From the IMG/VR virus record IMGVR_UViG_3300033997_000243, positions 124,001-188,000 of that record: a stretch of 64,000 nucleotides of DNA. One strand, 5' to 3'. The notes below the pieces were generated by a model. That model had not been told where the DNA came from, searched no databases, and saw only the letters and a program-made list of their open reading frames with translations. Both the position numbers and the translations under genes were made by a program. Of this stretch, positions 23,398-58,702 are shown in pieces. This DNA is from a virus. How positions within the stretch are numbered: the first letter of the stretch is position 1; each line of letters starts with the position of its first letter.

Positions 23398-23475
23398 TGC
23401 CTATTATAGCAAAAATAGTATGTACCTACAATAGCTGTTTTTGACACACCTCGATCAGTTCAGTTACTTTCAACA
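23398..23475 (-). promoter_or_regulatory. Promoter P1 of a four-member family
   Basis: Extended -10 TGCTATAAT (TATAAT at 23403-23408), TTG at the -35 position 17 bp upstream, T-run before the -10, and the conserved block GTGTCAAAAACA about 40-51 bp upstream of the start, itself preceded by GAACTGATCGAGG. Shares 40 bp of near-identity with the copy at 55.4 kb. Confidence 0.85.
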
Positions 23476-23479
23476 GTTT

Positions 23480-23971
23480 TTAATGTAATCGGGTTATCAC
23501 ATACCAACTTGTTGGCCCTAAATTTTTATAAGAGCAGCCCTTCTCCAAATAGTCTATTGAGTACAGATCTAATTCAGTCAAAGCTAAGATTTCCTGAAGT
23601 CCCTTGAGTGAACGAACCCAACGCTGTTGATCACTATTAACCAGTTCAAAGCTACGTACATCTTCAGCCGTATTATTTTTCTCAAGTGGATTATTTGAAA
23701 TAGTAATACTGACATGACCTTCAAGTTCACTGTGACCGATCTCAACTTTCGTCCAACCAGCATCAATAAACTTTTCAGTCAAATATTCTTTGTGTTGAAA
23801 CATGGCTACACTCAATGGAGTGGCGGCCATTAGATCTAAACTTAACAAATCTGACTGGCGCTCACGCTGAACCCAATTGTCTGTCACTACTTCAATAAGT
23901 TTATTGTTTAACAACTCTAAAGTTTTATCAGGTGACAGCATTACAAGATCTTTTGGTGTAATTAATTTCAT
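23480..23971 (-). CDS. Hypothetical protein with GW beta module
   Basis: 163 residues. The start at 23971 is chosen over 24022 because the longer form overlaps the neighbour by 40 bp; GTGAGAAACC is a modest ribosome site. Contains FIDAGWTKVEIGHSELEGHV followed by SITIS, the same module as in the proteins at 17727 and 37173. The C-terminal half is unmatched. Function unknown. Confidence 0.83.
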   Translation of the reverse strand: MKLITPKDLVMLSPDKTLELLNNKLIEVVTDNWVQRERQSDLLSLDLMAATPLSVAMFQHKEYLTEKFIDAGWTKVEIGHSELEGHVSITISNNPLEKNNTAEDVRSFELVNSDQQRWVRSLKGLQEILALTELDLYSIDYLEKGCSYKNLGPTSWYVITRLH

Positions 23972-23982
23972 TGGTTTCTCAC

Positions 23983-24594
23983 TTAAATTGAATCGTAGTC
24001 TAAGGCTGGTGCGCCTTCCCAATACAAGCGAACGGTTTTCCAGCTATCAAACTTTCTGTGATTGATCTTTGTTCCAAACTGATCAGCTATTCTTTGCTGT
24101 TCAATCTGAAAGTAAAGTGCTGTATGTTGGCCGTGAAGCCATTGACCTGCCGATGGAGGATTCGTCCCATGATAAAAACTTCTGGTGGCTCTTTTTCCAG
24201 AAACCGGATCGATATAGGTAACAACATGGTAATATTCTGTTCTGCCGTTACGTGAATTAGTTTTGGTACAAAAACGAATGTTGTTGAAGCCGCCACCTTT
24301 TACAGTTGGAACATAAGGAATATCTACCAATAATTGTTTGTAATATTGAATAGCGTGATCTACAGTTGCTTGTATTCCGCCATGTTTAGCATAATTAAAA
24401 TGCGTTCCATATCGAACACCTTCACGCACTAAACGAACTTGCAAATAACCTTTGTCTGGAAAGGAAAGCCCATGACCATTTGTTGACAAAAGTTTAATAG
24501 TTTCTTTTGAAAGTGCCTTCGTTACGTAGTTTGGTAAATTAGTGCAACCACGAGCAAACTTTGATTTTTCTTTTTCTTGCATCATTCTATCCAT
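23983..24594 (-). CDS. Protein with AP2-like DNA-binding repeats
   Basis: About 203 residues; the exact start is uncertain (ATG at 24594, 24585 or 24582) because the longer frame crosses a terminator hairpin. Residues about 45-90 (KGYLQVRLVREGVRYGTHF, then an amphipathic helix ATVDHAIQYYKQLL) and about 105-165 (HVVTYIDPVSGKRATRSFYHG, then HTALYFQIEQQRIAD) each have three strands plus a helix, as in AP2 domains of phage HNH-type proteins. No nuclease motif is visible. Probably DNA-binding; inference only. Confidence 0.72.
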   Translation of the reverse strand: MDRMMQEKEKSKFARGCTNLPNYVTKALSKETIKLLSTNGHGLSFPDKGYLQVRLVREGVRYGTHFNYAKHGGIQATVDHAIQYYKQLLVDIPYVPTVKGGGFNNIRFCTKTNSRNGRTEYYHVVTYIDPVSGKRATRSFYHGTNPPSAGQWLHGQHTALYFQIEQQRIADQFGTKINHRKFDSWKTVRLYWEGAPALDYDSI

Positions 24595-24602
24595 AAAAGA
24601 AA

Positions 24603-24619
24603 GGCGGGTAAGTCCCGCC
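24603..24619 (-). terminator. Intrinsic terminator
   Basis: Minus-strand GGCGGG ACTTA CCCGCC stem followed by TTTCTTTT, right after the stop of the 68-residue gene. It overlaps the longest possible frame of the AP2-like gene, supporting a shorter start there. Confidence 0.7.
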
Positions 24620-24629
24620 ATTTATTGCC

Positions 24630-24836
24630 TTACTTTTTATCAGTCTCTTCTGATAAAACTGACTTATTACAGTCAATAATAAGTTTGAGTTTACCGGAAG
24701 ATTCAGGCCGCTTTTTCGCAATAACAACAGAAAGTTGATCTGTCGGTAAAGGCTCAGTGCGCTGAATAAAAAAAGCGGTATCGGCTGCGTTCTTCAAGAA
24801 CTCAATTGTTTTCTTTTGGTGTGGAAAAAGATCCAT
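24630..24836 (-). CDS. Small hypothetical protein
   Basis: 68 residues starting MDLFPHQKK; AAGGATAAA precedes the ATG at 24836, and the longer frame would overlap the upstream gene by 50 bp. Contains a charged middle and ends SEETDKK. No family recognised. Followed by a terminator hairpin. Confidence 0.8.
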   Translation of the reverse strand: MDLFPHQKKTIEFLKNAADTAFFIQRTEPLPTDQLSVVIAKKRPESSGKLKLIIDCNKSVLSEETDKK

Positions 24837-24846
24837 AAATTTATCC

Positions 24847-25293
24847 TTAATCCAGAACAGTGATAACGCCAAAGCTATCACCGACTTTAATAACATGGCC
24901 TTCCATCAGATCGCCAACTTTTCTGAATTGACCGTCAGCAAGTTCAACAATACTATCAGAAGTAAGTTCGACAACTGATCCAGCTTTATTTACAATCGAA
25001 CTAAAGCTAACGCCACCAATGTCCACGCCCATTGTATAGTCATAACACTTGATAAGCTCTGCATCATCTGGATGTGAACTGACTCCAAGTGTTGAACTTT
25101 TACCACTGCAAACAATAGACGAGCCAAAGAAACTTATTTCACCAGCCGAAAAAATTTCGCAATCTTCATCAAAAGATTCGCGGATCATCTGCTTTAGAAT
25201 TTTAAACATTTCGGCGTGAACAAATTGATTCGGCATAATCAAAGGAACTTTACGAGAAAGTTCACCTTTAGTAACAGCAACTACGTATTTCAT
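24847..25293 (-). CDS. Conserved phage hypothetical protein
   Basis: 148 residues, ATG preceded by AAGGAATTT. MKYVVAVTKGELSRKVPLIMPN, then VHAEM and SAGEISFFG, resembles an uncharacterised protein family I recall from phage genomes (SAGEV and a later YDY). Alpha/beta, cytoplasmic, no catalytic signature evident. Role unknown. Confidence 0.82.
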   Translation of the reverse strand: MKYVVAVTKGELSRKVPLIMPNQFVHAEMFKILKQMIRESFDEDCEIFSAGEISFFGSSIVCSGKSSTLGVSSHPDDAELIKCYDYTMGVDIGGVSFSSIVNKAGSVVELTSDSIVELADGQFRKVGDLMEGHVIKVGDSFGVITVLD

Positions 25294-25303
25294 AGTAAAT
25301 TCC

Positions 25304-25900
25304 TTATGTTACTGGCTTAATAAGTTTATCAATCTTATCGATCCAGATTGCACGTTTGCCCTCGGCCAGTGCTTTACGCATTGTTTCGCGGCCATCTTCT
25401 GTAAGCTCTCTACGGTAAAATTCATTGGCCTTAGAAAAGATTGTTGAATTGCCGCAAAGATGAAGCCCGTTATCAGATTTCAACAACGTCTGTAAATCTT
25501 CAGGTTCTATTGCCAATACGTAACCATCAGGACGACTGCCCCAATTTAATTCGTATTCTGTAACACTGGCTACCCAAATAAAAACCAATGATACTTCGGT
25601 TTTTAAAGACACTTTGTTAAAGGCAGCAACTTTTTGGCCATATGTTAAGCAACCAATGCTTTCGATGCCTGTTGCACACAAACGCACAACTTTAATGGCA
25701 TCGATCATTTGTTCGGCATACTCAGTTTTGTCGGGTCTGCGAATTGTTGCATCGTATGCACCTATAAAACTTAGGTAGGCAACACGCTCGACTTCTTTAA
25801 TGGTATTGCCTAATCGATCTTCTTTTGTAGCATTAAATAAAAAACTTAATGCACTTTCAACGCTGTTGGCGTCAAATAAATCTTTGATTTCTACTTTCAT
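25304..25900 (-). CDS. Hypothetical protein
   Basis: 198 residues, ATG preceded by AAGGAGTAC. Soluble alpha/beta protein; strands SLVFIWVASVTEYELNW near residues 105-120, then a helical, basic end (EGKRAIWIDKIDKLIK). No family recognised. Confidence 0.86.
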   Translation of the reverse strand: MKVEIKDLFDANSVESALSFLFNATKEDRLGNTIKEVERVAYLSFIGAYDATIRRPDKTEYAEQMIDAIKVVRLCATGIESIGCLTYGQKVAAFNKVSLKTEVSLVFIWVASVTEYELNWGSRPDGYVLAIEPEDLQTLLKSDNGLHLCGNSTIFSKANEFYRRELTEDGRETMRKALAEGKRAIWIDKIDKLIKPVT

Positions 25901-25910
25901 AGTGTACTCC

Positions 25911-26744
25911 TTAAACGACCAATGAACGCAAGTGCATATAAAAGGCTTTTGTTTCGCCGTCCAGATCAGTTATTTTAACGTCTGTTGTGGCCCGTTGAAG
26001 TTCAAACTTTATCTTACTTCCAATAAAGTAATCATGCACTGCCCAACTTTTAAGCGTAGAGTCTGTTGGAGTAAAATCGAAAACAAGTTCGACTGCATCT
26101 GTTCCGTGTTCTTCAAAGACACGAGCAATTTCATGTTGGTGTGTTGTGACTGCTAAACGACCACACAATGAAGTTTCATTGTCGCTAAACTTTTTGGCTG
26201 ACTTCAAAGTACCCAAAGAAATACTACGCTCTATATACCAGATAAACTTTTTCAGTGTATCATTCGTACCGCATTGATACGCAACGTGGACACAGCAATT
26301 ACGTAACACAGGATCAAGATCTACTGAATTAAGTTTGACACAAAACTTATCTATTAAAGCTTGTGCTTCTTCATACTCAGCTTTGAACAGTGCTTCACCA
26401 AGTTTGTTTTCTAACACAGCAGACGCACGATCCACAGTAATGATTGCCAACATTTTATCCAAAGCTGCATTGACAACGCCGTCAGTCAACAACTTTTTAA
26501 TATAGCTTTCATTGCCTAAGTTATCGCCTTCTTCACACGTAAGTAAATTTGTGCGTTTAATTTGAAAGGCAAGAGTATCACGCATTACACCAAATAAATG
26601 GGTTTTGGCTGATCCATCTAAATCAGCTTTACCTAGAACGCGGTGAATCATTTTTCCGTTGTACGCATCTTCTTTGATCATCGTACTGGCTTTTGCAAAG
26701 ATTACAGAAATATCTAACTGATGGTTTGGTGTTGATAGTAACAT
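25911..26744 (-). CDS. Hypothetical protein, paralog of the 49.3-kb gene
   Basis: 277 residues, ATG preceded by AGGAGGAACC. The stretch FIWYIERSISLGTLKSAKKF, then EIARVFEEHGTDAVELVFDF aligns in order with LYLYLERALKLGSFTCRNSK, then CISKAFEEYGQKEVRLVFQL in the 267-residue protein at 49285-50088, followed in both by a beta-rich end. A diverged duplicate of unknown function. Two hairpins precede it at 26774-26814. Confidence 0.87.
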   Translation of the reverse strand: MLLSTPNHQLDISVIFAKASTMIKEDAYNGKMIHRVLGKADLDGSAKTHLFGVMRDTLAFQIKRTNLLTCEEGDNLGNESYIKKLLTDGVVNAALDKMLAIITVDRASAVLENKLGEALFKAEYEEAQALIDKFCVKLNSVDLDPVLRNCCVHVAYQCGTNDTLKKFIWYIERSISLGTLKSAKKFSDNETSLCGRLAVTTHQHEIARVFEEHGTDAVELVFDFTPTDSTLKSWAVHDYFIGSKIKFELQRATTDVKITDLDGETKAFYMHLRSLVV

Positions 26745-26773
26745 AGCGGTTCCTCCTTTGGAACGGGTTGCTT

Positions 26774-26814
26774 TTAACTAGAGTAGTTAATTTTGGACAC
26801 TCAAAAGAATGCCC
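26774..26814 (-). repeat. Two adjacent stem-loops in a leader
   Basis: On the minus strand GGGCATTC TTTT GAGTGTCC (8 pairs, two wobble) begins 12 nt after the upstream stop, followed by TTAACTA CTC TAGTTAA (7 perfect pairs). Their position after a stop resembles the H1-H4 stem-loop family, but the sequences differ. No T run, so not a typical terminator. Confidence 0.55.
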
Positions 26815-26826
26815 AATCAAAATACA

Positions 26827-27021
26827 CTAAGGTTGAACTTTTAGAAAGCCGTACTTTTCAATAGCGGCAATTCGTTCGGGTGTAAAATCGCCAGAAACTT
26901 TCTTCAAGCTTGGTGGATTTGTACTCAAGACTTCGGCAACTTCTACACTACTGCCGTCATTGAAGTCGTATCGCCACACAGCACCTTGTAAGTGCGTATC
27001 TTCGATTACCATTAATTGCAT
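26827..27021 (-). CDS. Small hypothetical protein
   Basis: 64 residues, ATG preceded by AAGGGGAAA. N-terminal strands (MVIEDTHLQGAVWRYDFNDGS) then a short helix (PERIAAIEKYGF); a compact alpha/beta miniprotein. No family recognised. Confidence 0.8.
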   Translation of the reverse strand: MQLMVIEDTHLQGAVWRYDFNDGSSVEVAEVLSTNPPSLKKVSGDFTPERIAAIEKYGFLKVQP

Positions 27022-27039
27022 TTATTTCCCCTTATCAAT

Positions 27040-27261
27040 TTAATTAGGTTTGGTTTGATAAACCCAATGTTTAATAGAAATGATGAACTTTTTAATGCTC
27101 TTACTTTCCCAGTACCATTCATGTAGAGCAACAAAAAGTTGTCCGAGTTTACCCAACACTGTAAACGCGAATAAAAATATACCTAATAGTGCAAAAGGAA
27201 ACAGCATTGCAAAATAACGCATTACAAATTTACATTTCCAGACAAAACTTTTTTCTTTCAT
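27040..27261 (-). CDS. Small membrane protein
   Basis: 73 residues, ATG preceded by GGAGTAACCGCT, nearly the same leader as the gene at 25911. One long or two short hydrophobic segments (about 12-40) between basic ends (MKEKSFVWKCK and KSIKKFIISIKHW). Probably inner membrane. No family recognised. Confidence 0.82.
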   Translation of the reverse strand: MKEKSFVWKCKFVMRYFAMLFPFALLGIFLFAFTVLGKLGQLFVALHEWYWESKSIKKFIISIKHWVYQTKPN

Positions 27262-27297
27262 AGCGGTTACTCCGGTAACAGGTTGAAAAGATTAAGA

Positions 27298-27663
27298 CTA
27301 ATCACGTTCTTCATAGTATTGTTTGCGTGGAAAAGCTTTTGGTGTTATCCAGTAACCATCTTCGCAAACATCCCAGTCGGTATAGATCGTTGTTCTTACA
27401 TCACAAAGACTAACAAACTTTTCTTTGTGTTCTGGAACAAGGTTAAACAGCGGAATCCATTCGCTCGTTGTTCTCAAGTAAACGAATTCAAGTTCTGCCC
27501 AACCTTCGACCTTCAGTAAATCTTCTTTGAGAAAGTGTGAAGTCTGCAAAGGAACTTGAGTACCTTTCATGTTTACGCGCAAAAATGGACTGTCATCTAG
27601 TTCAAGATCGTTTACGATTTGAGCCAGTGTATATCTTTTGCCAGTGATTGGAAATTGTTTCAT
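27298..27663 (-). CDS. Hypothetical protein
   Basis: 121 residues, ATG preceded by GAGGATAAT. Beta-rich, Trp-containing, with an alternating pattern around residues 40-80; the end is basic and aromatic (FPRKQYYEERD). No family recognised. Confidence 0.84.
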   Translation of the reverse strand: MKQFPITGKRYTLAQIVNDLELDDSPFLRVNMKGTQVPLQTSHFLKEDLLKVEGWAELEFVYLRTTSEWIPLFNLVPEHKEKFVSLCDVRTTIYTDWDVCEDGYWITPKAFPRKQYYEERD

Positions 27664-27670
27664 ATTATCC

Positions 27671-28012
27671 TCACTTTAAAATTGAATTAATAGCAGCATC
27701 CATTTCTTTTTGCGCTGCCAATAAATTTTTAGTCTGATCTATCTGAAGCCACAAATAGCCGACCAACAGTTTTACCAACTTTTCTATGTTTTCATTGACA
27801 GCCTTGGATTTTCCCTTGCTGCCACAATGATTAGTTAAGTACGAGCGAACAACCGATCTTGCAGAACTAAAAATAAGATCTTGCGAAAGTTCGTCAATAG
27901 TTGACGCCTTTGTCAATAACGCAACCGCTTTTAAATCAGTGCATAACGCATTGTACATAAAGCTGATAGCGTCTGAATATTCAAACTTTTCTTCTTTAAC
28001 TAAAGATACCAT
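27671..28012 (-). CDS. Small helical protein behind promoter P2
   Basis: 113 residues. AAGGAAAGC precedes the ATG at 28012; the frame stays open upstream only through the promoter, whose translation (ending SSFCYNGY) mirrors that seen at the 23.4-kb promoter. Helical throughout. First gene of the unit driven by P2. No family recognised. Confidence 0.84.
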   Translation of the reverse strand: MVSLVKEEKFEYSDAISFMYNALCTDLKAVALLTKASTIDELSQDLIFSSARSVVRSYLTNHCGSKGKSKAVNENIEKLVKLLVGYLWLQIDQTKNLLAAQKEMDAAINSILK

Positions 28013-28039
28013 AATTGCTTTCCTTGTTTGCTCTAACTT

Positions 28040-28103
28040 GTAGCCATTATAGCAAAAACTGCTTGTCCCATCAATGGGTATTTTTGACACACTTGGATCA
28101 ATT
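28040..28103 (-). promoter_or_regulatory. Promoter P2 of a four-member family
   Basis: TGCTATAAT with TATAAT at 28046-28051, TTGATG at the -35 position with 17-bp spacing, and the upstream block GTGTCAAAAATA preceded by TTGATCCAA. The spacer holds CCCATTGATGGG, a short hairpin. The stop codon of the acetyltransferase gene lies inside the upstream block. Confidence 0.85.
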
Positions 28104-28520
28104 GGCGCTGTTTAACCAGTTATACACAATAAACTTTTCATCCAACTTTCTAAAGAACTTTTCAGTTCCTTGAGTTCCGACCGTACCAAACAGCTTATGC
28201 TTTTGTTTTGGCCTTGGTAAATATTCAAACATTTTTCTAGCGATACCAAGACCTCTAAATTTGCCACGCATAAAGAAATGATGATATAGACTGTAAATTG
28301 ATCTATTCTTTGACCTAAAGGTTTCTCTGTATAGTATTCCAACTGGTATATCATCAATAAAGGCCAAAACTATTTCTTTCTTTATGTCTTTCGGTTGTTC
28401 TTCATTTACTATGTTCCGCAGATTTTTAATTAGCTGCCAACCATTAACATACAATCTATGCTTAATAGCTAGTTCCGCGCCTTTAACCAGATTTTCGTTT
28501 TCAAAGATTTTTAATTCCAT
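28098..28520 (-). CDS. GNAT-family N-acetyltransferase
   Basis: 140 residues starting MELKIFENE; TTGGAAAAATC precedes the ATG, and a terminator lies in the longer frame. EIVLAFIDDIPVGILY forms the central strands, then GKFRGLGIARKMF is the R/Q-x-x-G-x-G/A acetyl-CoA-binding loop and helix, and KFFRKLDEKFIVYNW the closing unit. GNAT enzymes transfer acetyl groups to amines or proteins; the substrate cannot be inferred. Last gene before promoter P2. Confidence 0.82.
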   Translation of the reverse strand: MELKIFENENLVKGAELAIKHRLYVNGWQLIKNLRNIVNEEQPKDIKKEIVLAFIDDIPVGILYRETFRSKNRSIYSLYHHFFMRGKFRGLGIARKMFEYLPRPKQKHKLFGTVGTQGTEKFFRKLDEKFIVYNWLNSAN

Positions 28521-28534
28521 GATTTTTCCAAACG

Positions 28535-28557
28535 AAAAAGGCAGCCGAAGCTGCCTT
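28535..28557 (-). terminator. Strong intrinsic terminator
   Basis: GGCAGCTTCGGCTGCC with UUCG tetraloop followed by TTTTTCG on the minus strand, after the deaminase gene. One of the best terminators in the window; it separates the deaminase-containing genes from the acetyltransferase gene. Confidence 0.88.
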
Positions 28558-28561
28558 ATAA

Positions 28562-29536
28562 TCAACAAATTTTAAGTGAAGGCTCTTTTGTATCTACAGC
28601 CACGAATAATTGAAAAACACTATTGAAACCAACAACCATTACTATGCCATTGGCTAAACGCATTTTAAACACAACATCCAATACAGCTGGTGGATCTTCA
28701 CCAATGCTTTTGTTATTTATTTCAAAAGCAGCATCTTTCATAGTTCCGTAAGTTTTTGCACGTTCCTTTAAAAGTTCGGCCACACTGATCATTCCGTAGC
28801 GCAAACTACGATAACGACTTGCGCCATAATAAGCTGGATTCATTTCATCACAAAATTCACCAAAATCTTCTTCTGGCTTGTACAAGGTTGCACCTCGAAC
28901 AAACAAGTTAAGTTCATTCAAGTCCTTTTTGTCCAACATGGCCACATGAGCTGCTGTAATAAAATTTTGAATGCGTAACAGAAAGTTTTGTTGGAATCTG
29001 CTAACCATAAGTTCAAACTTTATTTGATCTTGAGTTTCCAACAATTCGCTTATACGCATGGCACTCACTTGTTCCCAAGTAATTCCAGCTTCATCAAGTA
29101 ACTCTAAACCTGCTTGCACTCTGTAACTGTCAACAAAAATAACGTGGTCAATTTTACCAGTTTTGATGATCGCTTGTGAGCAGTTAATACAAGGCGTACT
29201 CATGACCAACATTACACAACGGCCAAACTTTTCAACAGATTTGTTGCGATGTGATCTGTGTGGTATGTTTGAGAAGTTTGCTTTTTTAATAGCATTTATT
29301 TCACTGTGAATAACTTCAGGCAGTGTAATTCCATCAACTTCAAACACATGATCTGATCCGCTGGCAACTCCATTGCAGCCATCACTTAAAATCTGCCAAA
29401 CTTGACCAGTAGTATGCTGAAGAATAATACTACCCATTTTCTTTCGCGTAACCTTGCTACGCTGTGCCGCAACAAACATATCCAGCACATAAGTTTTCAG
29501 CGTTGGAAATTGTTGTAGATATGAAAGTTTAGTCAC
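28562..29536 (-). CDS. dCMP-deaminase-like protein with long C-terminus
   Basis: 324 residues, GTG start with GGAGAATC upstream. Residues about 20-150 follow the cytidine/deoxycytidylate deaminase pattern: SDGCNGVASG, then zinc ligand and proton shuttle in HSEINAIKKA (H77, E79), PCINC (C116, C119), then GKIDHVIFV and a conserved helix. The Ser replacing Ala in HAE is unusual but seen. dCMP deaminases supply dUMP for dTMP synthesis, useful to a phage. The last 140-170 residues are unlike the known family and may be an extra domain. Confidence 0.85.
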   Translation of the reverse strand: MTKLSYLQQFPTLKTYVLDMFVAAQRSKVTRKKMGSIILQHTTGQVWQILSDGCNGVASGSDHVFEVDGITLPEVIHSEINAIKKANFSNIPHRSHRNKSVEKFGRCVMLVMSTPCINCSQAIIKTGKIDHVIFVDSYRVQAGLELLDEAGITWEQVSAMRISELLETQDQIKFELMVSRFQQNFLLRIQNFITAAHVAMLDKKDLNELNLFVRGATLYKPEEDFGEFCDEMNPAYYGASRYRSLRYGMISVAELLKERAKTYGTMKDAAFEINNKSIGEDPPAVLDVVFKMRLANGIVMVVGFNSVFQLFVAVDTKEPSLKIC

Positions 29537-30078
29537 ACTGATTCTCCAATGACAACATCAAGTTTAATACGTTCCGGTGTCGGTAGCGGATCGTACATGA
29601 AATCAATTGAGATCAAACAATCGCCATCTTTCGTCATATTGGCTCGATTTGCATCAGTCCAAGTTAAAGAACTTTGCATATCAAATGTGTAAAGAATTAT
29701 ATCTCTGATTTGAGATCTACGTGAAGCAATTCTTCTGGTATCTACTGGAACACTAACGAAGGTTACGCGATTCCAATCTATTTGACCTACTTTACGCTCA
29801 ACATAAAGCTTAAGCTGCTTAAGAGCGTTATCTCGTGTCGTGGGAAAATAATTAATAAGCAAATAAATTCTTTTCCCTGTACGAAACGAGTCCAAGTGTA
29901 GCTTGTTAAGGACAACCATAGTTGGACAATCGAAGGCTATGGCTGAATGTGTACTCATATCAACTATGGGAAATTCATCGAAAGTTGTCAGTGGAGGATA
30001 AACCAGATTTTGTACATCCCAAAACCGCAATTTACTTTTGCTGGACTCTAAATGAAAAAGATTAATATCTGAACTCAT
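29533..30078 (-). CDS. Hypothetical protein
   Basis: 181 residues, ATG preceded by AAGGAATTAC, overlapping the deaminase gene by 4 bp (GTGA). Alpha/beta; the core has strands TMVVLNKLHL, RIYLLINYF and VTFVSVPVD with a basic DTRRIASRRSQIRD patch. Co-translation suggests a link to the deaminase; nature unknown. Confidence 0.86.
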   Translation of the reverse strand: MSSDINLFHLESSKSKLRFWDVQNLVYPPLTTFDEFPIVDMSTHSAIAFDCPTMVVLNKLHLDSFRTGKRIYLLINYFPTTRDNALKQLKLYVERKVGQIDWNRVTFVSVPVDTRRIASRRSQIRDIILYTFDMQSSLTWTDANRANMTKDGDCLISIDFMYDPLPTPERIKLDVVIGESV

Positions 30079-30087
30079 TGTAATTCC

Positions 30088-31415: not shown

Positions 31416-31416
31416 A

Positions 31417-32001: not shown

Positions 32002-32027
32002 AGATTTGTCCACCAAATAAGTTAATA

Positions 32028-32372: not shown

Positions 32373-32378
32373 AATTCC

Positions 32379-33254: not shown

Positions 33255-33255
33255 G

Positions 33256-33831: not shown

Positions 33832-33841
33832 TTAATTTCTC

Positions 33842-47087: not shown

Positions 47088-47096
47088 AAGTTACCT

Positions 47097-48040: not shown

Positions 48041-48041
48041 A

Positions 48042-49273: not shown

Positions 49274-49284
49274 AGCAATGCTCC

Positions 49285-50088: not shown

Positions 50089-50100
50089 TTTTAATTCCCC

Positions 50101-50436: not shown

Positions 50437-50447
50437 TATAAAGTTCC

Positions 50448-51049: not shown

Positions 51050-51557
51050 TTATCGTCCTTACATTTGATTCAAGTTTTTCTATGGCCGCGAAAAGTTTAT
51101 TCAGTTCAGCCACAATCTTTTTAACCTGAGCTTTAGTTTGTTTAATACTTTTGTCTGTATCAGGATACCAACTAATACTTTGACTACAGCAAGAAATTTT
51201 AAGGCCCAAACTAATTTCAATGGCTCCACGTTTCTTAAGGTAAGTAATCATGGAACCAGAGTAAGTGCTTGTTTCTGGATTTAACCAAGAACGTAAAGTA
51301 AATTCTTCATCTACTTTAGGATCTATATGAAGAAACCTATCCAACATAGTCAATACGATTTTAAGTTTGTTTTTAAAATCGGTTGAACAACAGCTTGGAT
51401 TTTTATCATCGCTGTGTATGTGAATAGTGTTGTTTCCATTGGTTAATTCAAAATATGCTTGAACACATTCTGTTGTGGCCCAAGCACTCCAACGAATTGC
51501 ATGAAAAGTTTTAGGATCTAACCATGCACGGTTTCTAATTGGCTCCATGTAACTCAT
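51024..51557 (-). CDS. Hypothetical protein
   Basis: 177 residues, ATG preceded by GAGGTTAAAT. Mixed fold with Cys pair (PSCCSTDF) and a later CCSQ; the end is a coiled stretch (KKIVAELNKLFAAIEKLESNV). Overlaps the next gene by 26 bp. No family recognised. Confidence 0.84.
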   Translation of the reverse strand: MSYMEPIRNRAWLDPKTFHAIRWSAWATTECVQAYFELTNGNNTIHIHSDDKNPSCCSTDFKNKLKIVLTMLDRFLHIDPKVDEEFTLRSWLNPETSTYSGSMITYLKKRGAIEISLGLKISCCSQSISWYPDTDKSIKQTKAQVKKIVAELNKLFAAIEKLESNVRTINGNPLFLL

Positions 51558-51560
51558 AAA

Positions 51561-52406
51561 CTATTTAACCTCGAACACGTACAGTATAATGCAATGAGTT
51601 ACCACTGATAAAACAATGGCTACTAAATTCAACATCCGAGCTTTCAATAATTTTCGGCCCCATTCAGCAATTTTATCTGTTAGCAAAGTGCCTGAACTTG
51701 CCGAAAAACTTTGATAAGTTTCAGTTAACCAGAGTTTTATTCTGCGTTGATGAAGTTTTTCATGTATAAGGGTCGAGGCCACAAAAAATATGTTTAGTGA
51801 GAGCGTTAAGTAGATTGCCCAACTTTGTACTGTATAACCTAAATCCATCAAATTAGATCTGGCGTACACATAAACACATACCATAGTTAATATTGAAAGA
51901 TTACCAATAGCGTTCGCAAGTAAAACACGAGAAAGTGTCAACCAATTTTGATCGTTGTTCAACAATTCTTCTTTCAAACTTTTTGCGGTATCTGAAGAAT
52001 CACCTACGTTTTCAGAAGTCAAGTCAGCAGCTGTAACCGAATAGTTTGCTGAAATATTATGATTCTTTGTCACAGTCCACTTAGGTAGAAAGTTTTGGAA
52101 GTCGAATTTAATTCTGAAAAGATCAGCCGGACATCCTTTAAATTCGTAATGAACTGTGCTTCCACTTGCACCCGTAAAATTGCTGAATTTAAAGCAACCT
52201 AAAAACGTAAGCCAGAAAACTTTGTAGCCATGCTTTTTTAAATAGTCTTTCTTCAAACACACGTTACGCAACAGCACGAAAAACATTGTGCAGGATATTT
52301 TTAGGTAGTCCCACAGCCCCCACAGTAAAATGAATGCAACGAAGGCTACACACAACCAACCAAAGACCTGAACAAGTCCATCAACTAAAGCTAAAATGGT
52401 TTCCAT
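51561..52406 (-). CDS. Multi-pass membrane protein
   Basis: 281 residues, ATG preceded by AGAGGATAG. Membrane segments near 13-35, 36-55, 160-180, 190-208 and 255-275, with a soluble domain of about 80 residues between the second and third that contains beta strands. No transporter motif recognised. Located in the inner membrane by composition. Confidence 0.84.
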   Translation of the reverse strand: METILALVDGLVQVFGWLCVAFVAFILLWGLWDYLKISCTMFFVLLRNVCLKKDYLKKHGYKVFWLTFLGCFKFSNFTGASGSTVHYEFKGCPADLFRIKFDFQNFLPKWTVTKNHNISANYSVTAADLTSENVGDSSDTAKSLKEELLNNDQNWLTLSRVLLANAIGNLSILTMVCVYVYARSNLMDLGYTVQSWAIYLTLSLNIFFVASTLIHEKLHQRRIKLWLTETYQSFSASSGTLLTDKIAEWGRKLLKARMLNLVAIVLSVVTHCIILYVFEVK

Positions 52407-52427
52407 AATACTATCCTCTAAAAAGAT

Positions 52428-53060
52428 TTATTTAAGGTTTGCCGCGAACGTCAAACTATGCCGCTGGATTGCCTCAAGTGGCGTTGCTGCGTATGGCCCA
52501 ACATCAATACGTTCGTCAGTGTGAAGCATTGTTATTGTATGCCAGTAGCGATGATCTTCTTTCATTGGATCAGCATTCACCACCAGTTCTGCAATAAAAT
52601 CTTTGCAATACGCAACAGCAGAAATTTCAGAATCAGTTGCCTTTATTTTATATTGGGGGTATTGCAATACAAATTCAGCAAGCAACTCATCTGACTTTAA
52701 ATTTGCGACATCAAACTGCAAAGTTGGAAAAAGTTGTTTAAGAATTACATTACTTAGCTGAGATTTTCCTGCGTCAGACGTACCAGCAATGACCAACATT
52801 TCACCTCTACGCAAACCGCCGTTTACTACAACCTCACCACCGTACCATTCACCGAGCTTTTGGGCCAATGATTGCGGAGGAATACTTATGTCTGTTAAAG
52901 AAAGTCCATCGTTTTGTGGTGCAGGAATTGGCTCACCAATTTTTTCAAACATTTCCCGTGCTTGAGCCAAAGTAAGTTCATGCGTTGGCATATGAACAGC
53001 AGATTCAATATGTTTTGGCAAAGCAGTTCTTTTCACTTGTTTTTTAAGATGCGGTTTCAT
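52428..53060 (-). CDS. P-loop protein with shortened core
   Basis: 210 residues, ATG preceded by AGGAGAATATT. Basic N-terminal 20 residues, then GGLRRGEMLVIAGTSDAGKSQL at about 83-104, a canonical Walker A (GxxxxGKS/T) in the RecA-like context of 'rxGxxxvixG'. After it comes only one helix and strand, then a separate alpha/beta end (YWHTITMLHTDERIDVGPY). No Walker B (hhhhD) is evident, so ATP may be bound but not hydrolysed. Partner unknown. Confidence 0.84.
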   Translation of the reverse strand: MKPHLKKQVKRTALPKHIESAVHMPTHELTLAQAREMFEKIGEPIPAPQNDGLSLTDISIPPQSLAQKLGEWYGGEVVVNGGLRRGEMLVIAGTSDAGKSQLSNVILKQLFPTLQFDVANLKSDELLAEFVLQYPQYKIKATDSEISAVAYCKDFIAELVVNADPMKEDHRYWHTITMLHTDERIDVGPYAATPLEAIQRHSLTFAANLK

Positions 53061-53069
53061 AATATTCTC

Positions 53070-53495
53070 CTATATTAAAATTCGACGATGCGGGTAGTAA
53101 CTCATTAAAATATTACCAGACCCGATTAAACCACTTACCGCAGATTTGATTTCGTACTTATCCCACAAACTTTTTGCAAACGCATCAACAATGAATATAG
53201 GTAAATGGTCTAACACAACATAATCATATTTACCTTGGTAAAATTCAGAGATCACATATTTGGCCGCATAGTTTAAGGCTGAACGTGCGTAAGGGCAATG
53301 ATCTTTTCCAGCGGCTGCCTCGAAAAGATCTTGAGTTAATATCTCTGGATTAACGGTCAAAACAAAACTTTCATTCATTGCCTTTCTGTTGGCTTCGCTT
53401 AAAAGTCCAGCACGATGTCCAGACTTTTCTATTGAGTAATGTGTATCACCAAACTCAGAAAGAAACAAAAAGTTTAACGTATTTATTAATTGCAT
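53070..53495 (-). CDS. Hypothetical protein, paralog of the 58.2-kb gene
   Basis: 141 residues, ATG preceded by AAAGGAGAATATT. YDYVVLDHLPIFIVDAFAKSL and the C-terminal HRRIL align with PDYVLVDGIPLFFVQHIVDQL and HKRII in the 133-residue protein at 58186. Helical N-terminal half. Stem-loop H3 lies in its leader. Confidence 0.85.
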   Translation of the reverse strand: MQLINTLNFLFLSEFGDTHYSIEKSGHRAGLLSEANRKAMNESFVLTVNPEILTQDLFEAAAGKDHCPYARSALNYAAKYVISEFYQGKYDYVVLDHLPIFIVDAFAKSLWDKYEIKSAVSGLIGSGNILMSYYPHRRILI

Positions 53496-53522
53496 AATAT
53501 TCTCCTTTAAGAATTTTTGATT

Positions 53523-53545
53523 GCGTACACTAAAGTAATGTACGC
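53523..53545 (-). repeat. Intergenic stem-loop, family copy H3
   Basis: Minus-strand stem GCGTACA/TGTACGC with 9-nt loop TTACTTTAG, preceded by GTA, 11 nt after the upstream stop. Compared with H1 four stem positions changed on both sides (compensating), strong evidence for a selected RNA structure. Confidence 0.72.
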
Positions 53546-53556
53546 TACAAACAAAC

Positions 53557-53985
53557 TTATTCGGTTTGAGAAGAAAGTTTCACCATTACAAAAGGAACTC
53601 CGCCGGGTAAACTGGAATTTCTTTCCCGTGGCGTTAAAGTCAGTAACTCAAGTGCAACGCCAAGACATACAAGTTGATCAACAATTCTTTGTTGGCCAGT
53701 CCAGAGCGCACCACTTTTATCAGCACACATATTCAGAAAAGTTTCACCTTCAGTTCTTCTGAAAGAATCATCCAGTTGATTTAACATATCAACAACAGAT
53801 TCTTTGTGGCCGCGACAACGCTCTGGATGAAAGCCAACTTTTGTGACAACACCTGAACCTAAAAGATAAGTGCCTTCTTCAAGAATTGGCCCTTTGTCAG
53901 CAACTTCCTCTCCACGAAAAAGAGAATCAAGAAAAATTGCTGTCACGTTTTCTGACGTAAGTTTCATTACATTTTGTTTGGTCAT
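53557..53985 (-). CDS. Conserved phage hypothetical protein
   Basis: 142 residues; GGAGAAATGT precedes the ATG at 53985. VTKVGFHPERCRGHKESV, then LPGGVPFVMV, matches an uncharacterised protein family common in phages (KVGFHPERxxxHxxxI, SFLNAC, QWTGxxxxxxxLxxLG, PGGxPY). Probable enzyme-like fold; activity unknown. Confidence 0.86.
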   Translation of the reverse strand: MTKQNVMKLTSENVTAIFLDSLFRGEEVADKGPILEEGTYLLGSGVVTKVGFHPERCRGHKESVVDMLNQLDDSFRRTEGETFLNMCADKSGALWTGQQRIVDQLVCLGVALELLTLTPRERNSSLPGGVPFVMVKLSSQTE

Positions 53986-53997
53986 ACATTTCTCCAA

Positions 53998-54309
53998 TTA
54001 ATCTTTTTTCCAATTACCATCAACGTAAGTGTAAGTACCTTCACCAACTTTGCAGTAAAAATCTAAGGCAGATATGGCTCCTTGGCCGTAACCTGCTTTG
54101 TTGCAAGCATCTGCAATAGTTGCACCCCTTACAACCTCTTTTTTACCACCAATAAAGTAAAGAGTGAATTCGTGAACGTCTGGCGTATTAGTCAGCACAA
54201 CAGCACGATCAATAACTTCCTGATCCACAACCAGAGTCACAGTTCCGTTAGCTTTATTAACGGTAAAAGTTGACGCCAGTATTTGCTTTAAAATTTCTTT
54301 TGCTTCCAT
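53998..54309 (-). CDS. Conserved phage hypothetical protein
   Basis: 103 residues, ATG preceded by AGAGGATAAC. VVRGATIADACNKAGYGQGAISALDFY recalls a phage protein family with GATIADAxNxAGYGxGAxxALDxY. Alpha/beta, cytoplasmic. Stem-loop H4 in its leader. Activity unknown. Confidence 0.83.
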   Translation of the reverse strand: MEAKEILKQILASTFTVNKANGTVTLVVDQEVIDRAVVLTNTPDVHEFTLYFIGGKKEVVRGATIADACNKAGYGQGAISALDFYCKVGEGTYTYVDGNWKKD

Positions 54310-54348
54310 TTTGTTATCCTCTTTTTGTCAAGTACAATTGTTTTCATT

Positions 54349-54372
54349 GAGTACACTGAATGCAATGTACTC
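54349..54372 (-). repeat. Intergenic stem-loop, family copy H4
   Basis: Minus-strand stem GAGTACA/TGTACTC with 10-nt loop TTGCATTCAG, preceded by CTA, 10 nt after the upstream stop. Two stem pairs differ from H3 with both partners exchanged. Confidence 0.7.
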
Positions 54373-54382
54373 TAGTAAACAA

Positions 54383-54727
54383 CTATGCCAGCGGGTCATA
54401 GCCAAGGACGCCAACTCGTGCATCACGAACTTTTTCATCAGATCCATCTGCATAACGATCTGGTGATTCATCAGAAGTAAAATAATCGTAAAGCTTTTCA
54501 GCATCAACGATTGATCTCAGACCGAAAGAAAGATTTTCATCCTGACTTTCCAGCCAAGCGGTAATATCACTCATTCTTTCCGCAATGTTTACACGTTGTT
54601 TTGGTGACTGAGCAGCCCGAACTTTTTTCGCATCTGTTCCAGTCACATTGTCGATTGCATCCAAAGCAGATTGTTGAATTGCTTTGGCTTCTTCTTTCGT
54701 TGGTTTGCGAACTTTTTTATCGGACAT
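54383..54727 (-). CDS. Hypothetical charged protein
   Basis: 114 residues, ATG preceded by AAAGGAGAGC. Basic, Lys- and Gln-rich N-terminal helix (KKVRKPTKEEAKAIQQ) followed by an acidic, Tyr- and Asp-rich end (SDESPDRYADGSDEK). May be a flexible adaptor. No family recognised. Confidence 0.83.
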   Translation of the reverse strand: MSDKKVRKPTKEEAKAIQQSALDAIDNVTGTDAKKVRAAQSPKQRVNIAERMSDITAWLESQDENLSFGLRSIVDAEKLYDYFTSDESPDRYADGSDEKVRDARVGVLGYDPLA

Positions 54728-54750
54728 ACATTGCTCTCCTTTAATAAAAA

Positions 54751-55314
54751 CTACTTTAAAAGTTTAATACGCTGATCTAAAAATGTTTGTAACACACCTT
54801 CGTCAGCCAATTCACAATAATCGTCATCGTACTCTGTTGGATTTAACGCTGAGATTAAAAGATCGTCAGTAAACTCCACTTTGAAAATATCCTGTTTATA
54901 AACAGCTGGAATTTCGCAACCTAGTATGTAAGACACACAGGTAACAACATTATGTCTTACGTACATAATCTGGAAGGAAAGAAGTTCTGAACATTCGTAA
55001 ATTGAACAGAGTTCTTTGTAAACTTTCAATCCAAAATTCAAAATGAAATCTGGCTGCCCAACAAAGTTCGGCATAGGTCTGTATATTCTTTTTACGTTCA
55101 ATGAAGCACTGGATTTTGAATCTTTAAGAAAACATTCGATTACAACTGGCAAAGTATCTACTTTGTTTTCTTTAAGCTTGCTGTTCCAGTCCTCTATAAA
55201 AAAGTCGGAATCTACAAATCTAGCTGCCGCATGTAAGTGACCGCTTTGATCATCCATGTCATCGATTTTAATAGTGAAAAGTTTGCGATTTATTGAGTTA
55301 GCTGAATTATTCAT
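54751..55314 (-). CDS. Hypothetical protein, first gene after promoter P3
   Basis: 187 residues starting MNNSANSINRKLF; AAGGTAAGAC precedes the ATG at 55314. A longer frame exists only because promoter P3 is open in that phase. Alpha/beta soluble protein without recognised motif. As the first gene of a very long unit it may be among the earliest expressed. Confidence 0.85.
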   Translation of the reverse strand: MNNSANSINRKLFTIKIDDMDDQSGHLHAAARFVDSDFFIEDWNSKLKENKVDTLPVVIECFLKDSKSSASLNVKRIYRPMPNFVGQPDFILNFGLKVYKELCSIYECSELLSFQIMYVRHNVVTCVSYILGCEIPAVYKQDIFKVEFTDDLLISALNPTEYDDDYCELADEGVLQTFLDQRIKLLK

Positions 55315-55361
55315 TTGTCTTACCTTACTTAGATTTAAAGCACTATTGCTTTGTTTCAATG

Positions 55362-55442
55362 TGCCTATTATAGCAAAATAGGGGCTGATCAACAACCCCT
55401 ATTTTTGACACGCCTCGATCAGTTCAGCTACTTTCAACGATT
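55362..55442 (-). promoter_or_regulatory. Promoter P3 with embedded terminator hairpin
   Basis: TGCTATAAT with TATAAT at 55367-55372, TTG at -35, and the block GTGTCAAAAATA at constant distance upstream, preceded by GAACTGATCGAGG. The spacer GGGGTTG/CAGCCCC is a 7-bp hairpin followed by TATTTT, so upstream transcription may stop where downstream starts. Confidence 0.85.
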
Positions 55443-55446
55443 TTTG

Positions 55447-57666
55447 TTAGTTTCCCTTAACCGGCAAATGTTCTCCAATACGCGCTATCCATAATACACC
55501 GTCAATGATTTTGAAGTGAACTTGAATAGTAGCATCTTCACTGCGACGAGTACCAAGCGTTAAATGCTGGATAAAAGTTTGCGGCTTTCCTTCAACATTA
55601 AATACACGCATTGCACTCAATACTTTGTTAGTCATTACAACTTCGCTTTCGTTGGCTTTGTATTTGTTGCCAAGAATATCCATCGCTTCTGAATCAGGAA
55701 TACCTGAAGTGATTGCTTGAAAGTAAGGCCCACACAAACGAACCAACATTTTTAAAAGTTTACGTGGATGGCGATACGTATTGCTTTCCAGATTCGACAT
55801 ATCCAGAAAGCGAGTGGCCGGAAACATTTCTTTGATGATTGTAACTACATCACACAAAGTTGGTTCATCCGTTAACGCATTTAATGTTGCATCCGTATAT
55901 TTGGCAACAACAATACTTTCTTGCGTTTCGTGTTTCTTGCTAAGCTTGTTTTTGAGATCCGCTATTTCAAGCAACAGATCTTTATTCTCAAGAAGTACCA
56001 ATTGAAGTTCATCAGTTTTTTCCGTAGAAACTTCTTTTGGATCTTCTGATTTCAAAACATACTTTTCAGCAATCAACACGTATTCGTTGGCGCTAACAAC
56101 CAAAGTATCTATCCATGATTCTACTCGCATTACAGACAAAGCAAGTGAATCCGAACAATCCACCATTTCCACAATAATATCTTGCTTGTGTGCAACGTCT
56201 TTAGCGGCGGCCAGAGTAGCAGTCAATTCGCTAAGACGTTTATCAGACTCAAGTGCTTTGCTGAAGTGCTCCAAGAAAAGTCGTTCAGATTGTGCGTCAG
56301 ACTTTCCTAAAGATTCATCTGTAACCCGAAGTTCGATAGGGCCACGAATTTCAGTTAACAACTCTTCACCGCGAGAAGGATCAAGTTGCAGACTTTCTAC
56401 GTATTCGATCTGAAGTTTGATGTTCGCATGTTTTGCCTTCAGGTTTTCCATTGTCTGAGTTAAAAGGTTATTTACTTCTCCACTCTTTTCAATGTCGGCC
56501 AAGTGTGAATATGCACTTGACAGATTTTCGGTTATGGCCTTGAAGTCACTTATCAAAGTTTTCTTGGCCGTTTCATCCAGACCAAAGTAAGACCGCAAAT
56601 CAACTTTATCCAGAAGCGCAAACTTTTTCTTGGCTTCCAAAAGTCTATCAAGTTGTTCATCAATTTCTTCATCAATAAACTTCAGGCCGCAATCGGCAGC
56701 AACTTCAAAAAGAACTCTGTCAACTTCACCAAAGTCAAAACCTTTGGTTCTGGCTTCCAGCATTTCTTTTGAGTTACCCAACTTTCCAATTACAGTGCGT
56801 TCATCTAATTGAGGCCAATTACGAACGTAGAAAGCCCAAATAGAAAACGTACAGGTAAATGTTGAGCTAATAAATGCGAGGAAAAGTAAACACGCATTCA
56901 ACCTGTTTAACTCAGTATTTTCATCGTGAGTTTTACACTCTTCGATCAAATACTCAAAATAAAAGGCCGCAGCGTTAACCATTTGTTTGCATGTATTATA
57001 TTCGCGCAAAGGCAACATATTGAAAAGCGAATTAATAAAGCTGGAATTAGCTTTCAAAGTTTTTGCTTCAGCGTATTCAGGCAACTTAGGCCAGCCTAAA
57101 ATATTTATGGCTGCTCTCAACATTCTCATTGACCATGCGTAATTCCATTTATCCGCAGATCTTTTTAATGGAACGGCAAACTGCATAAAGAACAAACAAT
57201 CTTCTTTGGTCTGCAATTCAGATTGATTACGAGCATGTCTTGGATAGCCGCCAACTGTCATCATTTCGTCAATCAAACGAATCGGCGCTTTACTATCCGC
57301 AAGAACACCAAGTTCTTTCATCAGTTTAAAAAAGTTGATCTGTTTTGGATACTCACCAAAATAAAATCTTGGGAAAGCAGCGGTTGCCACAATCTTTGAC
57401 ATCAGTTCGTCATTTTCCTCAGACGTAACAACAAGATGTGCGTACTTATCCGTGTTATGTTCGTAAGGAATTGAAAACAATGTAGGATCTTGAATACACT
57501 GTTTAAAGTTGCTGAGTAAAAGTTTGATTCGATTTTTGCGTACAGCCTCTTCAGGATCTTTTCCTGAAAACAAATCGATAACTTCTATAGAAACACCACT
57601 TTCTTGCAATGACTTAACATCTAAGCCTTTGCTGCGTAGAAGATCTAACGTAGCTTTAGAATCCAT
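55447..57666 (-). CDS. Large coiled-coil protein with conserved C-terminal module
   Basis: 739 residues, the largest protein here; ATG preceded by AGGGAAAG. Helical N-terminal 330 residues, then long coiled coils (about 370-450 and 530-600, e.g. VLLENKDLLLEIADLKNKL). The last 130 residues (SNTYRHPRKLLKML, FIQHLTLGTRRSE, IQVHFKIIDGVLWIARIGEHLPV) resemble the C-terminal module of bacterial coiled-coil proteins I recall, ending xRIYFxxxxxxxxxIGHxGxHLP. That module is of unknown activity; those proteins are sometimes found near defence genes. The role here is open. Confidence 0.85.
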   Translation of the reverse strand: MDSKATLDLLRSKGLDVKSLQESGVSIEVIDLFSGKDPEEAVRKNRIKLLLSNFKQCIQDPTLFSIPYEHNTDKYAHLVVTSEENDELMSKIVATAAFPRFYFGEYPKQINFFKLMKELGVLADSKAPIRLIDEMMTVGGYPRHARNQSELQTKEDCLFFMQFAVPLKRSADKWNYAWSMRMLRAAINILGWPKLPEYAEAKTLKANSSFINSLFNMLPLREYNTCKQMVNAAAFYFEYLIEECKTHDENTELNRLNACLLFLAFISSTFTCTFSIWAFYVRNWPQLDERTVIGKLGNSKEMLEARTKGFDFGEVDRVLFEVAADCGLKFIDEEIDEQLDRLLEAKKKFALLDKVDLRSYFGLDETAKKTLISDFKAITENLSSAYSHLADIEKSGEVNNLLTQTMENLKAKHANIKLQIEYVESLQLDPSRGEELLTEIRGPIELRVTDESLGKSDAQSERLFLEHFSKALESDKRLSELTATLAAAKDVAHKQDIIVEMVDCSDSLALSVMRVESWIDTLVVSANEYVLIAEKYVLKSEDPKEVSTEKTDELQLVLLENKDLLLEIADLKNKLSKKHETQESIVVAKYTDATLNALTDEPTLCDVVTIIKEMFPATRFLDMSNLESNTYRHPRKLLKMLVRLCGPYFQAITSGIPDSEAMDILGNKYKANESEVVMTNKVLSAMRVFNVEGKPQTFIQHLTLGTRRSEDATIQVHFKIIDGVLWIARIGEHLPVKGN

Positions 57667-57675
57667 TTTCTTTCC

Positions 57676-58176
57676 CTAAAAAATTGTTGAAAGTAATTCG
57701 CGCATTGCACGATCTTGTTTGCGCTCTATTTTGTTTGAGCGTCTGGTAAGTGTGGCATGAATAACCAAACTTTCCATAGTCCCCTGAAAAACAGAACCAG
57801 TTCTTCTAACCTGAACAACTTTATTTTCAGCAAAGTTGTGTAGCTCAAGTTTAACTGTTTGACCGTGTTTCATAACACGACGAGCAATACCAGTAAGAAT
57901 ATCGAAAGTAAGATCATATTCTACGCCGTTACGCTCTTTGCACCACAGAAAAAGTTTGTCGTTGGAATAAAAGATTAGACCTTTACGGCTGGCTGTTTTT
58001 GAAAGATTGTACAGCTGCTCTAAAGTAAGATCAAAAATCATACTTGGAACCGTAACATCTGATCCAGCATCAAAGTTGATCTTAAGTTCACCGCTTTGTA
58101 TTTTGAAAACACAACCTTCCATAATTCGCACCAGACGTTTTTCGACTAAAGTGCGCGGTACTTTATTTTTCTTCAT
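57676..58176 (-). CDS. Hypothetical basic protein
   Basis: 166 residues, ATG preceded by AAGGAGATACC. Basic at both ends (MKKNKVPRTLVEKRLVR and RRSNKIERKQDRAMR), with beta-rich middle; might bind nucleic acid. No family recognised. Confidence 0.85.
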   Translation of the reverse strand: MKKNKVPRTLVEKRLVRIMEGCVFKIQSGELKINFDAGSDVTVPSMIFDLTLEQLYNLSKTASRKGLIFYSNDKLFLWCKERNGVEYDLTFDILTGIARRVMKHGQTVKLELHNFAENKVVQVRRTGSVFQGTMESLVIHATLTRRSNKIERKQDRAMRELLSTIF

Positions 58177-58185
58177 GGTATCTCC

Positions 58186-58587
58186 TTAAATGATACGTTT
58201 ATGATCCATATTCATTTGCACAATACAAATGTTTTTTGGCGGTAAAACAATAAGCGTTGCGCTATCCAAACTTATTGCATGTAATTGATCAACAATGTGT
58301 TGAACAAAAAATAAGGGAATGCCATCAACCAAAACATAGTCTGGAACATAACTAGCTTGATTCATAGCATCATCCATGATACAAGCAATCTTTTCAGCTT
58401 GCTTATAAAGCAGTGCTGATGATAACTTTGTATCATCTGATAAAAGGTTTACAACTTCATCAAATAAATCGTAAACTTTTTGCTGAGTAGATTCAGGCAA
58501 AACAAAAGTTACTATTGGAATATCATTCAATTGATCAAAATTCGATGGAACAAAAATACGCCTTGATAGCATAGCGAGTTTAATCAT
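58186..58587 (-). CDS. Hypothetical protein, paralog of the 53.1-kb gene
   Basis: 133 residues; GAGGTATTT precedes the ATG at 58587. First gene after promoter P4. PDYVLVDGIPLFFVQHIVDQL and the C-terminal HKRII match the gene at 53070. Helical N-terminal half. Function unknown. Confidence 0.84.
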   Translation of the reverse strand: MIKLAMLSRRIFVPSNFDQLNDIPIVTFVLPESTQQKVYDLFDEVVNLLSDDTKLSSALLYKQAEKIACIMDDAMNQASYVPDYVLVDGIPLFFVQHIVDQLHAISLDSATLIVLPPKNICIVQMNMDHKRII

Positions 58588-58639
58588 AAATACCTCAAAT
58601 TGAGTTAAAACAAGCAAGGTCGTTTCTTGATTTTCTTGG

Positions 58640-58702
58640 CCCTATTATAGCAAAAAGGGGCAGCCGAAGCCACCCCTATTTTTGACACACTTGGATCAGT
58701 TC
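58640..58702 (-). promoter_or_regulatory. Promoter P4 with embedded UUCG terminator
   Basis: TGCTATAAT with TATAAT at 58644-58649 and the block GTGTCAAAAATA, preceded by GATCCAA. The 20-nt spacer GGGGTGGCTTCGGCTGCCCC folds into a UUCG-capped hairpin followed by TTTTT, a complete intrinsic terminator inside the promoter. Confidence 0.86.

Follow-up and report, generated by a model that had tools for sequence, protein, structure and literature searches.

A boxed class of predicted sigma70-type promoters, some with nested terminator-like hairpins, in a jumbo phage and its relatives

Background

Four similar promoter-like sites, P1 to P4, lie within the 64,000-nucleotide stretch of phage DNA analysed here (the window), which spans positions 124001-188000 in a virus record of 319,518 bases (G000). 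A sequence-only reading had interpreted them as a four-copy promoter family whose -10 element is accompanied by a conserved block at constant distance upstream, and had proposed that this block is bound either by RNA polymerase, in the manner of an UP element, or by a phage or host activator. The locus thus raises the question of what reads the upstream block, and of whether it belongs to a wider class of phage promoters.

Results and discussion

The four sites and their copies in the phage genome

All four sites are located on the minus strand of the window (23403-23447, 28046-28090, 55367-55411 and 58644-58688; Table 1). The composite GTGTCAAAAAYA-N24-TGCTATAAT has four mismatch-free matches in the window compared with 0.01 expected from dinucleotide shuffles, and TGCTATAAT alone occurs there exactly four times, each time within one of P1-P4, so that the family is real. 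Its constant spacing was confirmed, as GTGTCAAAAATA (one base off at P1) is found exactly 24 bases before TGCTATAAT at all four sites, and so was the variable -35 hexamer, which retains TTG at P1, P2 and P3 and not at P4. The shared block is identical in P2-P4 only, P1 having GTGTCAAAAACA instead of GTGTCAAAAATA, and the GATC noted upstream of it is present but is only a piece of a longer conserved stretch, AACTGATCNARGT. Judged from its sequence, the promoter reading of P1-P4 is strongly supported; what had been overlooked are the larger box, the hairpins nested in some of the copies and the presence of the element across an entire jumbo-phage group.

The block recurs beyond the window, as the family reading demands: all seven exact occurrences of GTGTCAAAAATA in the record lie inside boxed promoters, of which there are 13 in total, near-identical and on a single strand. 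At up to three mismatches, 12 composites were detected in G000, all on one strand, and a 13th has a spacing of 25. Further composites are present in relatives, 12 in G001 (286.6 kb) and 12 in G002 and G003 (80.8 and 214.5 kb), which are probably one phage. The 23-bp box alone was found 13 times in G000, 13 times in G001 and four and nine times in G002 and G003, respectively, and its reversed pattern not at all. In 104 kb that were read directly, the box score is 21-22 of 22 at the 12 boxed TGnTATAAT or TGnTAAAAT sites of the coding strand and no higher than 11 of 22 at any unboxed TGn(TATAAT/TAAAAT) site. Orthologous promoters of G000 and G001 have kept the box though the downstream proteins are only 30-51% identical; the flanking gene order of G000 and G002/G003 is mostly collinear within 1.5 kb of the copies.

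Several other matches were discarded. Viral contigs L063-L066 contain the block and a -10 element without the box and represent chance matches, and BLAST of a composed consensus element returned hairpin-like chance matches only, two of which overlap an annotated terminator in Staphylococcus phages. A promoter on the opposite strand, starting from a TTGACA there, was dismissed as no -10 element follows. A search for near-identical phage DNA gave none, and neither known RNA families nor tRNAs were detected in the window. The ends of the G001 record (L041, L056; 66-110 and 282305-282349) are identical to each other over >1.5 kb; this record is thus probably complete, its ends reflecting either terminal redundancy or circular overlap.

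Table 1. Elements of P1-P4 and their downstream genes, in window coordinates
Feature	Position	Strand	Remarks
P1 box and A-tract AACTGATCGAGGTGTGTCAAAAA, -64 to -42	23438..23460	-	
P1 -35 TTGTAG, spacer 17 bp	23426..23431	-	
P1 extended -10 TGCTATAAT	23403..23411	-	predicted start A at 23396
Gene behind P1: 77 aa, ATG preceded by AAGGAG, without family match	23142..23375	-	
P2 box and A-tract AATTGATCCAAGTGTGTCAAAAA	28081..28103	-	TGA overlaps stop codon of upstream gene 28098-28568
P2 -35 TTGATG, spacer 17 bp	28069..28074	-	
P2 extended -10	28046..28054	-	predicted start A at 28039
Gene behind P2: 113 aa, without family match	27671..28012	-	
P3 box and A-tract AACTGATCGAGGCGTGTCAAAAA	55402..55424	-	
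P3 nested hairpin AAAATAGGGGTTG...CAGCCCCTATTTT surrounding -35	55375..55405	-	-18.8 kcal/mol
P3 -35 TTGTTG, spacer 17 bp	55390..55395	-	
P3 extended -10	55367..55375	-	predicted start A at 55360
Gene behind P3: 187 aa from ATG, without family match	54751..55314	-	
P4 box and A-tract AACTGATCCAAGTGTGTCAAAAA	58679..58701	-	TGA overlaps stop codon of upstream gene 58696-58932
P4 nested terminator-like hairpin AGGGGTGGC-TTCG-GCTGCCCCT, then TTTTG	58656..58677	-	-16.5 kcal/mol
P4 -35 position TGGCTT, poor match	58667..58672	-	
P4 extended -10	58644..58652	-	predicted start A at 58637
Gene behind P4: 133 aa from ATG, without family match	58186..58587	-	

Anatomy of the element

The conserved upstream element, AACTGATCNARGT-GTGTC-AAAAA at -64 to -42, is longer than first noted; downstream of it come a -35 of degenerate sequence, then a T-tract, TGnTATAAT and, at -1/+1, CA. 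In an alignment of 35 copies from G000-G003, the contiguous conserved stretch extends from -64 to -40 and reads AACT[GA]A[TA]CNA[AG]GTGTGTCAAAAAYA; a T at -35 is invariant, and T at -18 to -15, G at -14 and TATAAT are conserved. As expected for sigma70-type promoters, TGnTATAAT is found in nearly all copies, with the -35 position at 17 bp. At the start predicted from sequence, 7 nt after TATAAT, C-1 is present in 33 and A+1 in 34 of the 35 copies. As the search pattern fixed GTGTCAAAAA and TTTTGnTATAAT, only columns outside it constitute independent evidence, and these (AACT at -64 to -61, C-57, G-53, T-35, C-1, A+1) are conserved like those inside. The region from -32 to -19 and the flanks have diverged among the 35 copies, whereas box, A-tract, -10 and +1 remained unchanged.

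Within the upstream element two parts can be told apart. AAAAA occupies -46 to -42 in nearly all 35 copies, which we take to match the position of the proximal UP subsite (~-46 to -38) in the Estrem 1999 consensus. An A/T-rich distal subsite at ~-57 to -47 is missing, this region reading CNARGTGTGTC, and the 18-bp box as a whole (-64 to -47) is not AT-rich and contains invariant G and C positions. Both proposals of the sequence-only reading may thus apply, albeit to separate parts of the element: the A-tract fits an UP-like contact, and the box fits a site for an activator-like protein, probably phage-encoded.

The same architecture with other boxes

The fixed architecture recurs with a differing box in five isolated phages, NCTB, JA29, AD1, fHe-Yen9-02 and PaBG, as revealed by an unbiased comparison of similar segments lying at a constant distance from -10 sites, in which controls gave 0-5 pairs per genome. 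In JA29 (Salmondvirus) the box is AACTCTGCAAAWNNGTGTCCAAAATA, with 10 copies and the best -10 located 53 nt from the box start in all 10, although several -10 hexamers are poor (TACACT, TAGACT, CACTAT). The box of fHe-Yen9-02 is AACTCTGCAAATNNGCGGCTAAAATA (-10 at 53 nt in 8/10), that of NCTB AACTTTTTTATCNNGGTACAAAA (52 nt in 7/7) and that of AD1, from the fixed-offset comparison, AACTCTGCAAATAACTGGWCAAAATAG. The A-tract is kept in most relatives and is missing in PaBG, whose box ACCTNAGCTATAAACATAACCGCTA is mostly at 54 nt. In JA29, fHe-Yen9-02 and AD1, all phages of Enterobacterales, the distal half of the box, AACTCTGCAAAT, is identical, and all clear copies are found on the same strand and are confined to one part of the genome. 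Dickeya solani MK10 was the isolation host of both AD1 and JA29, yet the six bases before their A-tracts differ (CTGGWC vs GTGTCC). Among the 48 proteins common to the five isolates, searched against Pfam and PHROGs, no candidate regulator was recognisable among the matches listed, which are the commonest families.

Two further arrangements were seen in these isolates. In most minus-strand boxed promoters of PaBG (KF147891; L113-L125), the box recurs in inverted orientation downstream of the -10, ~115-117 bp away, as though a protein bound both sides. At JA29 212876 and 228564 (L085, L086), a long inverted repeat, AAGCCTTTCC...GGGGAAGGCTT, surrounds the -10 and not the -35.

Gene surroundings and phage identity

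Every copy begins at the end of the upstream gene, and in 4 of 13 the TGA or TAA within the box is the stop codon of that gene. Genes start roughly 20-60 bases downstream of the predicted transcript start, and those behind boxed promoters are mostly without a family match; a DNA topoisomerase II subunit gene follows one boxed promoter of the G000 set, and a gyrase B gene follows one in JA29. Tandem boxed promoters, 118 bp apart, precede a single gene at G000 277302 and 277420 (L037, 15.3-15.5 kb), and the G001 orthologue of this gene has a tandem pair too (95881, 96051). The predicted 5' leaders at G000 277302, 277420, 278634, 286004 and 298018 often start with ATTGGTTARGGCAA, and they carry a hairpin near the 5' end whose bases differ but pair (Fisher p 0.001); 5'-leader hairpins in G001 were not significant. 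The mostly unmatched proteins of the window, L037 and L038 include UvdE (UV endonuclease), NADAR domain, DUF1190, thymidylate kinase and dCMP deaminase families.

The phage sigma factor phrog_17569 (L073), which is specific to the PaBG/Alexandravirus/Salmondvirus group of jumbo phages (PMC7412058), adjoins the single-strand binding protein gene in the same order as in PaBG, and the phage genome encodes two gyrase/topoisomerase subunits. RNA polymerase beta' (PF00623) was absent from G000-G003 while controls were detected, and the phage thus lacks the multisubunit RNA polymerase genes of its own that characterize the phiKZ type. Taken together, these features identify it as a distant member of the PaBG/Alexandravirus/Salmondvirus group, and because there is no beta' gene, the host polymerase is the expected and likely enzyme. 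In the test for the T4 superfamily no gp23 match was obtained, and the control was without a match as well. In addition, a 226-aa FliA/WhiG-like sigma factor (L038:12633-13313, minus strand; TIGR02479, 190.4 bits) is encoded in G000 and G003, and a sigma region 2 search of G001 found nothing like it.

Nested hairpins

A significant terminator-like hairpin surrounds the -35 in five of the 13 G000 copies (P3, P4, 277302, 277420 and 298018), and the hairpin at 286004 reaches -11.3 kcal/mol (p 0.06). For the G000 set Fisher's p is about 1e-6, although the copies share descent and are not independent. Between 277420 and 286004 a pair change is compensated, from GTGG..CCAC to GCGG..CCGC, and P4 is the best terminator-like site within its 20 kb. 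Such hairpins are rare in relatives, with 2 of 11 copies in G001 and 1/10, 1/8, 0/7, 1/5 and 0/6 in the others, and they differ between orthologous promoters: the hairpin of G000 279350 is weak and that of its G001 partner 96764 strong, while the box is constant. The copies thus depart from PeSL cassettes, every one of which would have a hairpin in or beside an early promoter, and termination as a universal role of the element was rejected because a minority of copies have a hairpin. To judge from their predicted structure, the hairpins most plausibly serve as optional terminators incorporated into the promoter.

Proposed mechanism and alternatives

We propose that the 13 copies constitute a single promoter class that drives blocks of non-structural genes, and we assign a probability of about 60% to the full mechanism, in which a host sigma70-type promoter also carries a site for a DNA-binding protein that is probably encoded by the phage. 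Host RNA polymerase with a sigma70-type factor would recognize a weak -35 together with the extended -10 (TGnTATAAT), and would start transcription at the A seven bases downstream of the -10. Its alpha-CTD would contact the A-tract at -46 to -42 in the manner of a proximal UP subsite, and a sequence-specific protein, most likely phage-encoded, would occupy the 18-bp box directly upstream. Contact between this protein and the polymerase would offset the poor -35 and mark the promoters as one regulon. In the five hairpin copies, the GC-rich hairpin around the -35 ends in the spacer T-tract, and an incoming transcript from the upstream gene would stop ~15 bases before the start of the next one.

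A phage-encoded, activator-like protein is favoured because the box is not AT-rich and differs between phages of one host strain. A box conserved within a genome and diverged between genomes at fixed geometry is also the trace expected of a trans-acting, phage-encoded reader. Concerted evolution is an alternative source of this pattern, but it would need to spare -32 to -19. It counts against the proposed mechanism that promoters required directly after injection could not rely on a newly synthesized phage protein, unless that protein is packaged or the promoters are middle promoters; the search for a regulator, which yielded no candidate among the matches listed, and the poor -10 hexamers of several JA29 copies weigh against it as well.

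It is unlikely on the whole that the copies are plain strong early promoters whose entire upstream block serves as an UP element for the host alpha-CTD, as in T4, with no other protein involved. The A-tract does lie where a proximal subsite would, and the TTTAC of the G001 copies recalls T4-like early promoters, which are reported to combine a GTTTAC-like -35 with A-rich sequence at -40 to -44 (PMC1524935); but the invariant G and C positions of the box do not suit an UP element, the sequence before the A-tract changes between AD1 and JA29 on one host strain, and PaBG has a box without an A-tract. Reading of the box by a host activator or nucleoid protein would account for the AACTCTGCAAAT common to three phages of Enterobacterales, a distal half that a host factor could read, and for the need of early promoters for factors already inside the cell. 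We nevertheless regard it as distinctly improbable, as phages of one host strain have different boxes. In addition, a comparison by eye with the consensus sequences of IHF, CRP, FNR, PhoB and DnaA sites showed no good fit of the box to any of them.

Two further readings would make the box a bystander. If the copies were PeSL-like mobile cassettes serving mainly termination and recombination between unrelated genes, with the box as a passenger, one could understand their position directly at the ends of upstream genes, the five significant hairpins (with the above caveat on the p value), the rank of P4 in its 20 kb and the precedent of hairpins nested in early promoters of RB49. Yet few hairpins are found in relatives, orthologous promoters differ in them while invariably retaining the box, and the gene order around the copies is preserved between G000 and G002/G003, which makes this reading very unlikely. 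An origin by recent, unselected duplication of a single promoter stretch is almost certainly wrong: P1 and P3 have ~40 bp upstream in common, but divergence has affected -32 to -19 and the flanks while sparing box, A-tract, -10 and +1, and the element is kept in relatives at 30-51% protein identity, with its spacing fixed even in other genera.

Relation to known phage promoters and significance

The boxed promoters are a form of phage promoter for the host polymerase and no new machine. PeSL promoter-terminator cassettes of T4-like phages, reportedly described for RB49, phi1, PST and nt-1 by Arbiol in 2010 and Comeau in 2014, likewise have a hairpin nested in a sigma70-type promoter and are repeated along the genome. 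In the RB49 sequence, which we read directly, ATAGGGG...CCCCTAT surrounds the -35 at 18509, but most RB49 hairpins fill the -35/-10 spacer, whereas those of G000 surround the -35 and run into the T-tract; moreover, in G000 the hairpin is found in a minority of copies and the upstream box in all. T4-type early promoters, located before novel early genes (PMC1524935), share with G000 the TATAAT with extended -10, a GTTTAC- or TTG-like -35 and the A-rich stretch near -42; the -64 to -47 box with invariant C and G, of which G000 has just 13 copies in 319 kb, is missing from the T4-type description. A phage protein site and an alpha contact upstream of an extended -10, as predicted for G000, are known from Mu Pm, with its Mor site and proximal UP element, and T4 middle promoters, with their MotA box (PMC4390567). 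The Mor (-43.5) and MotA (about -30) sites are nearer to the start, whereas the G000 box is upstream of the A-tract.

In the literature searched on PaBG and jumbo-phage transcription, a scope that excludes most subscription papers, neither boxed promoters nor the gene timing of PaBG-group phages without their own polymerase are described. The fixed geometry of the genus-specific box offers 5-13 sites per phage with exact predicted starts, and a bait for the binding protein. The hairpin copies of G000 are a compact case of a terminator hairpin built around a promoter -35. We tentatively suggest, at somewhat less than even odds, that PaBG-group jumbo phages, which have no RNA polymerase of their own, have in common a promoter class under a phage-encoded activator with which the box has co-diverged across genera. 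Each lineage would thereby possess host-polymerase promoters private to itself, and some of these would double as terminators.
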